From Tumebacillus sp. BK434 (GTDB lineage: Bacteria; Bacillota; Bacilli; Tumebacillales; Tumebacillaceae), in NCBI RefSeq assembly GCF_004340785.1, contig NZ_SLXS01000014.1:1-44578 (forward strand): 44,578 nt of DNA, written 5' to 3'. Shown piece by piece: positions 2,398 to 9,395 of the stretch (the stretch's first letter is position 1; every line of letters begins with the position of its first letter). The notes under the pieces were generated by a model. It was given only the letters and a program-made list of their open reading frames with translations. It was not told the origin of the DNA and did no database searches. Made by a program: the position numbers and the translations under genes.

Positions 2398-2426
2398 TTG
2401 CCAATCTGTATGAAATGGTCTATACT
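2398..2426 (+). promoter_or_regulatory. Promoter of the FusB/C-type leader and gene
   Basis: TTGCCA (2398-2403) and TATACT (2421-2426) are separated by exactly 17 bases, a near-consensus sigma-A promoter. Transcription would start near 2433, giving a leader of about 150 bases that contains the leader peptide and the attenuator stems. Confidence 0.8.
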
Positions 2427-2464
2427 TTTTCCAATTCCACCTCATGAAACGGGGGCCTAATCTT

Positions 2465-2494
2465 ATGGCAATACGCACTGGTCTGTTTCAGTAG
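2465..2494 (+). CDS. Leader peptide MAIRTGLFQ of the EF-G-binding protein gene
   Basis: A nine-codon open frame, ATG to TAG, encodes MAIRTGLFQ. GGGGG lies nine bases before the ATG and can act as a ribosome binding site. Its last codons lie inside segment 1 of a set of competing RNA stems (see 2483-2576). Size, position after a clear promoter and overlap with the stems match the leader peptides of translationally attenuated resistance genes such as erm. FusB itself is reported to be inducible in this way. That this peptide controls the gene is inferred. Confidence 0.65.
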   Translation: MAIRTGLFQ

Positions 2495-2576
2495 AAACAG
2501 GAGAATCGTATACCCAATTCATTCTGCTGTTTCTACTCTCGTCGTGAACTGCCAATAAACGAGAAGAAACAGGAGG
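2483..2576 (+). promoter_or_regulatory. Four-segment translational attenuator
   Basis: Four complementary segments are visible. Segment 1, CTGTTTC (2483-2489), pairs with segment 2, GAAACAG (2494-2500). Segment 3, CTGTTTCT (2527-2534) plus TCTCGT (2537-2542), pairs with segment 4, ACGAGA (2559-2564) plus AGAAACAG (2565-2572). Segment 4 runs into the AGGAGG ribosome binding site at 2571-2576. Segments 2 and 3 can instead form a perfect 10-bp helix (GTAGAAACAG 2491-2500 with CTGTTTCTAC 2527-2536). Ribosome stalling on the leader peptide would free segment 2, break the 3:4 stem and expose the binding site. Confidence 0.75.
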
Positions 2577-2585
2577 TACTTCCCT

Positions 2586-3254
2586 ATGACACAGGAACAA
2601 ACGATGGTGCCGTTCATGCACCCGCACCAGATCAATTTCATCCGCCACCAGCTGTTGCAGCTGATCGGCGCCTTCTATTTTGCAGGCGATTACCGCGTGC
2701 TGGCTGCGTCCCGCGAGAACGTGGAAGACACCGTGCTTTCGCTCTTTCCCGGCGCGACACCGGCTCAGCGTGCCCTGCTGCAAGATGCCAAGAACGTCCG
2801 TGACCGCGATGAGCTGAAAGCGTACATGAGCCGTCTGGAGCCGTACATCATCCCGTTCCCGGAGATTACAGCTGCGGAGATCCGCAAGCTGTTCCCGAAG
2901 GTGAAGAAGCTCGTGCTGCCCGATCTGGAGAACCTCGACCGCACCAAGCTGACCTACCTCGGCTGGCGCGACATCGCGACCAACAGCCTGTATCTGGTCT
3001 CCCGCAACGGTGACAAGTGGGCCGGCACGGAGTTCAAATTTGTCGCGGCTCAGAAGAACCGCACGATGATCTGCTCGTGGTGCCATTCGGTCGGCAAAGG
3101 CGATGACGTGGCATTGGTCACGTCGCGGGTGAAAACGAAGATCGTGGACGGGTACAAAACGCAAGGCAATCATCTGTGCCTGGACAGTGCCGCATGCAAT
3201 GCACGCATCACCTCGACAACGGAGATGGAAGCGCTTTTGGCTTCCTTTCGATAA
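2586..3254 (+). CDS. FusB/FusC-family EF-G-binding protein
   Basis: This 222-residue protein resembles FusB and FusC, which bind elongation factor G, drive its release from the ribosome and so protect translation from fusidic acid. The N-terminal helical part (HPHQINFIRHQLLQL at residues 12-26), the central PFPEITAAEIRKLFPKVKKL segment near residues 90-109, and the C-terminal zinc-binding domain all match. The zinc ligands appear to be Cys163, Cys166, Cys198 and Cys204. AGGAGG lies nine bases before ATG 2586. A promoter, a leader peptide and an attenuator precede it, so it is probably induced when ribosomes stall, and a terminator follows directly. Chromosomal homologues occur widely in Bacillota and may serve housekeeping EF-G recycling rather than acquired resistance. 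Confidence 0.88.
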   Translation: MTQEQTMVPFMHPHQINFIRHQLLQLIGAFYFAGDYRVLAASRENVEDTVLSLFPGATPAQRALLQDAKNVRDRDELKAYMSRLEPYIIPFPEITAAEIRKLFPKVKKLVLPDLENLDRTKLTYLGWRDIATNSLYLVSRNGDKWAGTEFKFVAAQKNRTMICSWCHSVGKGDDVALVTSRVKTKIVDGYKTQGNHLCLDSAACNARITSTTEMEALLASFR

Positions 3255-7838: not shown

Positions 7839-9395
7839 ATGAGTATCCTAAACGTTGAAAATATCGGTCACGGCTTTGGTGCCCGCCATCTGTTTTCCGG
7901 CGTGACCTTCCGTTTGCTGAATGGCGAGCACGTCGGTCTGGTCGGCGCGAACGGCACCGGCAAGACGACCCTGATGAGCATTTTGACCGGCAAATTGCAA
8001 GCAGACCAAGGCAAGCTGGAATGGTCGAACCGCGCCACGATCGGCTACCTCGACCAGCACGCCGCCTTAACACCGGGCAAGACGATCCGCGAGATCCTGA
8101 GCGACGCGTTCAAGCCGCTGTTCGACATGGAAGCGGAGATCGGCGTCATCGCGGAGCAGATGGCCGACCCGGAAGCCGATCTGGAAAAACTGCTCGAAGA
8201 CATGGGCGAGATCCAAGACCGCCTGGAAAACAGCGGCTTCTACATGATCGACGCGAAAGTCGAAGAGATCGCCAAAGGCCTCGGCCTGACCGCCATCGGT
8301 CTGGAGCGCGAAGTGCAGGACCTCTCCGGCGGCCAGCGCACGAAAGTATTGCTGGCGAAGCTGTTGCTGGAAAAACCAAACGTGCTGCTGCTCGACGAGC
8401 CGACCAACTATCTGGACGTGGAGCACATCGAATGGCTGACGCAGTACCTGCAGGACTACCCGTATGCGTTCATGCTGATCTCCCACGACGTGGAGTTCAT
8501 GAATGCGGTCGTCAACATCATCTACCACCTCGAAGGCGGCAAGTTGACCCGCTACACGGGCGACTATGAGAAGTTCGTCGAAGTCTACCTCGCCAAGCGC
8601 TCGCAGCAGGAAGATGCGTTCGAGCGGCAGCAAGAAGAGATCAAGCGCATGGAGATGTTTATCGCGAAAAACAAAGCCCGCGCCTCGACCTCGACCCGCG
8701 CCAAGTCGCGCCAAAAGCAGCTCGACAAGATGGAGCGTCTGGAGAAGCCGGTCACCTATCCCCGTCCGAGCTTCCGTTTTCAGGAGACGCGCCTGTCGTC
8801 GAAGCTGGTCTTTGAAGCGACCGACCTGCAGATCGGCTACAACCATCCGCTGCTCCCGCCGCTGAACTTCAAGCTGGAGCGCGGCGAAAAAGTGGCGATC
8901 ACCGGCATGAACGGGATGGGCAAATCGACCCTGATGAAAACGATCCTCGGCCTGATCAAGCCGCTCGGCGGCAAGATCGAGCGCGGCGACTACCTGGAGC
9001 CGGTCTATTTCGAGCAGGAAGTGTCCGATCGCCCGAACGTCACGGCGCTGGACGATGTCTGGAACTCCTTCCCGCACATGCAGAATCAGGATGTGCGCGC
9101 CAACTTGGCCCGCTGCGGCCTCGGCAACGAGCATATCACCTCGAAACTCTCCGCCCTCTCCGGCGGCGAGCACGCCAAAGTGCGCCTGTGCAAACTGATG
9201 CTCACCGCCTCCAACTGGATCCTCTTCGACGAGCCGACCAACCACTTGGACGTCGCGGCGAAAGAAGAGCTCGCCCTGACCTTGAAAAACTACAAAGGCA
9301 CCGTGTTGCTGGTCTGCCACGAACCGGAATTCTACAAAGACTGGGTCACCAGCGTCTGGAACGTGGAAGACTGGGCGAAGCAATTGCAGAAATAG
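7839..9395 (+). CDS. yfmM: ABC-F family ATPase, YfmM-like
   Basis: This 518-residue soluble protein has two ABC ATPase domains joined by a charged coiled linker, and no membrane domain. Walker A motifs are GANGTGKTT (residues 36-44) and GMNGMGKST (near 358). Signatures are LSGGQ (near 167) and LSGGE. Walker B is LLLDEPTNYLD, then LFDEPTNHLD. The linker (about 240-310) is rich in Lys, Arg and Glu. Length and the opening NVENIGHGFGARHLF match YfmM of Bacillus subtilis as I recall it. ABC-F proteins bind the ribosomal E site and relieve stalled or antibiotic-blocked ribosomes. GGAGGAG precedes the ATG. It has its own probable promoter and a strong terminator. Whether it confers resistance cannot be read from sequence. 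Confidence 0.85.
   Translation: MSILNVENIGHGFGARHLFSGVTFRLLNGEHVGLVGANGTGKTTLMSILTGKLQADQGKLEWSNRATIGYLDQHAALTPGKTIREILSDAFKPLFDMEAEIGVIAEQMADPEADLEKLLEDMGEIQDRLENSGFYMIDAKVEEIAKGLGLTAIGLEREVQDLSGGQRTKVLLAKLLLEKPNVLLLDEPTNYLDVEHIEWLTQYLQDYPYAFMLISHDVEFMNAVVNIIYHLEGGKLTRYTGDYEKFVEVYLAKRSQQEDAFERQQEEIKRMEMFIAKNKARASTSTRAKSRQKQLDKMERLEKPVTYPRPSFRFQETRLSSKLVFEATDLQIGYNHPLLPPLNFKLERGEKVAITGMNGMGKSTLMKTILGLIKPLGGKIERGDYLEPVYFEQEVSDRPNVTALDDVWNSFPHMQNQDVRANLARCGLGNEHITSKLSALSGGEHAKVRLCKLMLTASNWILFDEPTNHLDVAAKEELALTLKNYKGTVLLVCHEPEFYKDWVTSVWNVEDWAKQLQK

Follow-up and report, generated by a model that had tools for sequence, protein, structure and literature searches.

The DNA analysed here, referred to as the window, is a stretch of 44,578 nucleotides that forms one contig of the 4.65-Mb genome of Tumebacillus sp. 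BK434. Near its beginning lies a gene for a putative EF-G-binding protein, preceded by a promoter-like site, a short predicted leader open reading frame (ORF) and four complementary segments:

2398-2426, + strand: promoter-like site TTGCCA-N17-TATACT, matching the consensus at 10 of 12 positions
2451-2467, + strand: element GGGGGCCTAATCTTATG, presumed ribosome-binding site and start codon of the leader
2465-2494, + strand: predicted leader ORF MAIRTGLFQ*, nine codons, with ATA CGC (Ile-Arg) as codons 3-4 at the predicted trigger position
2483-2489, + strand: segment 1, CTGTTTC, within the leader ORF, found as an inverted repeat
2490-2506, + strand: segment 2, AGTAGAAACAGGAGAAT, overlapping the leader stop, found as an inverted repeat
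2521-2542, + strand: segment 3, ATTCTGCTGTTTCTACTCTCGT, found by inverted repeats and folding
2559-2576, + strand: segment 4, ACGAGAAGAAACAGGAGG, with the Shine-Dalgarno sequence AGGAGG (2571-2576) inside, found by an inverted repeat and folding
2586-3254, + strand: gene for an EF-G-binding protein of the FusB/FBP family, 222 aa, assigned by domain, PDB and cysteine matches

The 222-aa product matched both domains of the FusB/FBP family above their cut-offs, the N-terminal EF-G-binding domain and the C-terminal treble-clef zinc finger domain (PF07299, 6.7e-17, 62.2 bits, cut-off 27.1; PF16571, 3.9e-16, 59.4 bits, cut-off 27.2). A search of the PDB matched FusB chains at E 6.6e-21, and C163, C166, C198 and C204 align with the four cysteines of FusB, at 24% identity to FusB of pUB101. 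Against the NCBIfam exception-level models of the FusB, FusC, FusD and FusF resistance alleles the product scored 58-70 bits, with cut-offs of 375-450. A PADLOC run on the product returned none. The gene had been called FusB/FusC-type in an earlier sequence-only reading; judged by its sequence, the product is a homologue of the FusB family and not one of the named resistance alleles. Its presumed role is to release a translation factor that has become trapped on the ribosome.

The same reading had proposed a near-consensus promoter, a nine-codon leader and four segments able to pair either as 1:2 plus 3:4 or as 2:3, and these were recovered as the promoter-like site with its 17-nt spacer, the ORF at 2465-2494 and inverted repeats within 2398-2586. 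Pairing 1:2 joins CTGTTTC and GAAACAG (7 nt, 100%), pairing 2:3 joins AGTAGAAACAGGAGAAT and ATTCTGCTGTTTCTACT (17 nt, 94%, one mismatch) and pairing 3:4 joins CTGCTGTTTCTACTC and GAGAAGAAACAGGAG (15 nt, 87%). An additional pairing, 1:4 (7 nt, 100%), was absent from the earlier account. Segment 2 and the Shine-Dalgarno arm also share a 14-nt direct repeat (2490-2503 and 2562-2575, 93%). Folding of 2433-2600, which had been put forward as a check, left the binding site of the gene mostly paired, while the minimum for this transcript was 1:4 plus 2:3 (z -2.26; 4 of 200 shuffles) and the proposed 1:2 plus 3:4 was the minimum for 2433-2588 (-43.3 kcal/mol, z -2.92, matched by 1 of 200 shuffles). 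Either fold keeps the binding site largely paired.

The rarity of this arrangement was assessed with a pattern of exact k-mers, word-complement-word-complement, with the last copy near the start codon. With 7-mers, and likewise with 6-mers, none of 5000 dinucleotide shuffles of the target contained it, nor did any of 292 upstream regions drawn from 400 kb of the sister genome G006, stretches that do not include that genome's own copy of the gene. The 5-mer pattern is not rare (7/292 regions and 76/5000 shuffles). Of 43 upstream regions in the window itself, one has the 6- and 7-mer patterns and is taken to be the target; six have the 5-mer pattern. An alternative test, a strict Watson-Crick three-helix score applied to 66 upstream regions with 100 shuffles each, placed L001-L004 among nine regions at p 0.010. 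This score is insensitive and not fully specific, since it misses the published attenuator of pUB101 (p 0.535) and three leaders of a two-segment form described below (score 0), and flags L060 and L085, which by eye use the terminators of upstream genes.

A homologue of the gene is present in all seven genomes of the GTDB family (own included), one in each, with 59-100% identity, and none was found at E 0.001 in the seven genomes of the order lying outside the family (14 order genomes examined). The element GGGGGYCTAANNNTATG occurs exactly once in each of the seven family genomes, always ahead of the EF-G-binding gene; a reversed control pattern gave one match across the same genomes, and the leader motif was found ahead of no other gene in them. 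In 7 of 7 it is followed by a putative leader ORF with Ile-Arg, read as MAIRTGLFQ, MAIRTNLFQ, MVIRTYLFQ, MVIRANLFQ, MVIRTYCF, MVIRRTCLSSTIE and MRIIRPYCL. The nucleotides ATACG at the Ile-Arg codons are invariant throughout, and ATA is a rare codon, used for 279 of the 4571 Ile codons counted in 206 G006 ORFs. GGGGG is rare as a Shine-Dalgarno sequence (8/206 in a rough count), which counts against its reading as the leader's ribosome-binding site. All seven genomes also carry a promoter-like site with a 17-nt spacer and a 9-11/12 match, ending 22-31 nt upstream of the GGGGG element. A wider search of genome contigs with a longer leader motif gave five loci, four in Tumebacillus records and one in a Planctomycetota metagenome-assembled genome (L048), the latter a lone match and probably due to chance. 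By its sequence, this version of leader and fold is new, and it is kept in six comparable related genomes.

Two architectures were found in the family. Four species (G000, G006, G005 and G003) keep the four-segment layout despite differing loops, and in three (G004, G001 and G002) a single long hairpin is formed by direct pairing of the leader with the binding site and the start region, AUAC being able to pair with GUAU of the latter. A tree of 18 proteins separates the four-segment from the two-segment set (support 87/84); the rows of G001 and G002 start a codon too early, ahead of the ATG, and carry an assigned M as their first residue, with negligible effect. The 14-nt direct repeat suggests that the four-segment form may derive from the two-segment form by duplication. 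Covariation, which the sequence-only reading had named as a check, proved weak: among the 38 consensus pairs of the four aligned four-segment leaders, 2 carry a double change, and the covariation term is unfavourable (+0.62), pair counts being rough in G003 and G005, where MAFFT misplaces the outer helix 3:4. The core segments are invariant in these four species, as would be expected if each must match two partners, so that covariation neither proves nor refutes the model.

The effect of a ribosome on the leader was simulated by blocking its footprint at each leader codon and computing the cost of opening the Shine-Dalgarno sequence, using four footprint lengths (edges +11 to +17) and two transcript ends, in equilibrium folding that ignores co-transcriptional kinetics. 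With a transcript ending at the start codon and an edge of +15, opening in the four-segment leaders cost 5.4-6.7 kcal/mol in the free RNA, 0.4-3.6 kcal/mol at the best of P-site codons 3-5, and 4.9-9.7 kcal/mol with the stop codon in the P site. Across settings the opening zone moves by about one codon and, depending on species and footprint, lies within codons 2-6: some settings open codon 2, and the shorter footprints open codon 6 in G005 and, to a slight degree, in G006. In G003 opening amounts to only about 1.6-2 kcal/mol, and G000 opens only in part, its mean unpaired probability rising from 0.14 in the free RNA to 0.38 with codon 4 in the P site. When the spacer was shuffled and the leader kept, the real switch size was reached in 0 of 200 shuffles each for G000, G006 and G005, and in 32 of 200 for G003, which does not stand out; the switches of three of the four four-segment species thus look designed. 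In the two-segment leaders a ribosome in the leader also opens the site, from the start in G004, most fully late in the leader in G001, and likewise late in G002, there with the longer transcript only.

Leaders of the ermC type use the logic of 1:2 plus 3:4 against 2:3, and attenuators of the cat type use two segments. The Tumebacillus leader has its pairing logic in common with the former, its downstream gene not being a methyltransferase; the three two-segment sister species resemble the latter in having a single hairpin that would be opened by the leader ribosome, with a different downstream gene and leader. The nearest known system is that of fusB on the Staphylococcus aureus plasmid pUB101, reportedly described as a translational attenuator by O'Neill and Chopra in 2006. 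Passages in three papers describe this attenuator as induced by fusidic acid (PMC3352095, PMC12008383, PMC12493156), and a leader peptide before fusB is mentioned in excerpts of staphylococcal papers. A passage of the 2025 review among them (PMC12493156) gives the regulation of FusB homologues as unknown, and none of the excerpts among the literature matches listed dealt with leaders in Tumebacillus or ahead of chromosomal homologues.

The same computation applied to the pUB101 fusB leader gave 4.2 kcal/mol free, 1.1-2.0 at codons 5-11 and at least 4.3 from codon 12 to the end, with a modest rise of the unpaired probability from 0.35 to 0.57. Both systems thus combine a leader ORF, helices hiding the Shine-Dalgarno sequence, an EF-G-binding gene and a closed-open-closed course of the cost. 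They differ in the leader, read as MLKDITYLKLLDLEYKMLCS in pUB101 and MAIRTGLFQ in Tumebacillus, in the helix sequences, in the opening zone (codons 5-11 vs about 3-5) and in the setting, plasmid-borne vs chromosomal. Relative to the pUB101 logic, the other leader and helices, a predicted earlier trigger zone, the two layouts among sister species and the chromosomal setting would be new.

By computation, pairing hides the Shine-Dalgarno sequence as long as no ribosome sits on the leader, and a ribosome held there lets an alternative helix free it, as in a translational attenuator; we consider it likely that this leader is one. The sequence-only reading, which had proposed an erm-style attenuator, is upheld in part, with support from the leader in 7 of 7 genomes, the position-dependent opening and the same behaviour of pUB101, and is weakened by G003, which fails the shuffle control, and by the weak covariation. 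The promoter-like site, the leader ORF, the four complementary segments and the conserved leader and layout are read directly in the DNA, and from them we infer the switching steps. In the uninduced mRNA, 1:2 plus 3:4 or 1:4 plus 2:3 would each hide most of AGGAGG. A ribosome with about codons 3-5 in its P site, at or just past the rare AUA and the Arg codon, would cover segment 1 and leave segment 2 free, so that 2:3 could form and segment 4 with the Shine-Dalgarno sequence would be released. A ribosome reaching the end of the leader would cover segments 1 and 2, and 3:4 would close again. Ribosome stalling near the beginning of the leader thus probably switches the protein on through the leader and its RNA fold. 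EF-G trapped by fusidic acid or a natural equivalent would slow or block translocation early in ORFs and so induce a member of a protein family that dislodges EF-G from ribosomes; the candidate inducer, fusidic acid or another translocation block, is suggested only by the gene product. In the three two-segment species the leader ribosome would open the hairpin, a simpler route to the same outcome.

An arrest peptide or starvation sensor would also be an attenuator, in which the AUA-CGN stall is caused by the peptide, the rare Ile codon or the supply of Ile or Arg, and not by EF-G. Ile-Arg and ATA are invariant in 7 of 7, although no partner with which they could pair is common to the four four-segment folds, and by eye M-I-R or M-V-R also opens three distant leaders, one of them from Enterococcus faecalis, which may reflect a shared origin or a shared need at initiation. 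The controlled gene, however, acts on EF-G and not on amino-acid supply, and the pairing of AUAC with GUAU in the two-segment form means that the constancy of ATACG may be partly a matter of RNA structure. Nor need the constant Ile-Arg mark the trigger, since leaders of other lineages (L070, L082, L133) also start with Ile-Arg or Val-Arg, and those simulated among them open later. We regard this explanation as possible but rather doubtful.

Translational coupling, in which the leader merely loads ribosomes and the gene is translated constitutively by reinitiation with no sensing, fits the two-segment species best: their leader stop lies 20, 35 and 40 nt before the presumed start ATG (for two of the three, an in-frame ATG further upstream would shorten the distance to 14 and 34 nt), and in the longer transcript of two of these species the site opens most fully with late-leader ribosomes. 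In the four-segment species, however, the leader stop is 82-96 nt from the gene start, a ribosome there leaves the site closed, and the alternative helices would be unnecessary, which makes coupling improbable. Transcription attenuation or a ligand-binding riboswitch appears very improbable. The homologue G386 (locus L088) does have, by eye, a terminator-like hairpin with a T run before its gene, but from the Tumebacillus promoter to the gene (2426-2586) no terminator-like site was found on the + strand, and with it no intrinsic terminator of the kind that marks ribosome-mediated transcription attenuators; a search of the leader in Rfam gave 0 matches at E up to 1, and the leader ORF is conserved. 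Chance complementarity, to which the weak covariation and the shuffles of G003 might point, is hardly credible given the absence of the pattern from all 292 regions and 5000 shuffles and given a layout conserved in four species with differing loops, the conservation being a strong argument against it.

The simulation was also run on leaders of homologues elsewhere, for which genus labels such as staphylococcal or Paenibacillus-type are inferred with the help of resistance-allele scores and named records. Of 13 leaders simulated, nine were closed-open-closed in cost: pUB101, five presumed staphylococcal loci, and L070, L082 and L078. The five loci are FusD/FusF-like (320-486 bits, one passing the FusD cut-off). 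The leaders of L070, L082 and L078 before EF-G-binding genes read MVRTVSSIERQIAER, MIRFVSSVRTIGWQLD and MKKSSLSTAKVLKVTF; the unpaired probability of L070 rises modestly (0.06 to 0.26), L078 is half unpaired when free, and L057 is weakly closed (2.0). Four simulated Paenibacillus-type leaders showed no clear opening, and the same mechanism is therefore not claimed for them.

The Paenibacillus-type loci are L051, L062, L063, L071, L086, L087, L111-L130 (upstream of PF07299 genes) and L131. A script found a conserved leader ORF in 24 of 26 (for example MAIWMMPDCSFARKPYAKPE and MAIRDCSFARKSSCKA), with GGGGG before the leader in 21 of 26. In their structured RNA GCAAAGCC has a possible pairing partner downstream, either CUUUGC or GGCUUUGC, and 6 of 22 consensus pairs (25 sequences) show double changes; the subset of these loci searched in Rfam yielded no family. 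A Paenibacillus cellulosilyticus record with GGGGG and a leader readable as MAMARDCRTGTASCKA before the homologue agrees with this pattern, and in an Enterococcus faecalis record the leader of the EF-G-binding gene is readable as MIRQTLSLSKTHEVVCH. In other Bacilli (L018, L020, L024, L059, L060, L067, L072, L074, L080 and others) a conserved stretch of about M-x-S-L-F-L-[ST]-H-x-L-H-F-K was seen by eye directly after the terminator of the upstream gene and before the EF-G-binding gene; it lacks an obvious ribosome-binding site and may represent either a promoter/operator or a leader peptide. Among the tree's 10 outgroup proteins that of L088 is nearest, and the hairpin of this locus, just before the Shine-Dalgarno sequence, suggests transcription attenuation there. 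An Rfam search of 19 homologous loci gave seven matches, some of them weak and sRNA-named, none of which was taken as a leader element by place and kind.

The window encodes at 7839-9395 an ABC-F protein scoring 388.6 bits (NCBIfam ribosomal-protection cut-off 380), and shuffled versions of the region upstream of its gene fold equally well (z -0.28). By eye, the apparent end of the same ABC-F gene lies directly before the EF-G-binding gene in G003, and on a Priestia megaterium plasmid (L132, 495-1133) an EF-G-binding gene lies directly behind a gene of the macrolide-family glycosyltransferases.

We tentatively propose, as a conjecture that may well prove wrong, that chromosomal EF-G-binding genes of Bacilli are commonly controlled by leaders that evolved in several forms unrelated in sequence and act as a physiological sensor of failed translocation, with the Ile-Arg of Tumebacillus serving as a dedicated early pause and the four-segment switch having arisen by duplication, segment 2 being the relic of a Shine-Dalgarno arm. 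The leaders described here allow the regulation of a chromosomal homologue outside the named resistance alleles to be tested directly, and their seven natural variants in two layouts provide material for dissecting how ribosome position relates to gene expression. They also hint that EF-G-binding proteins may have a function outside the context of drug treatment.
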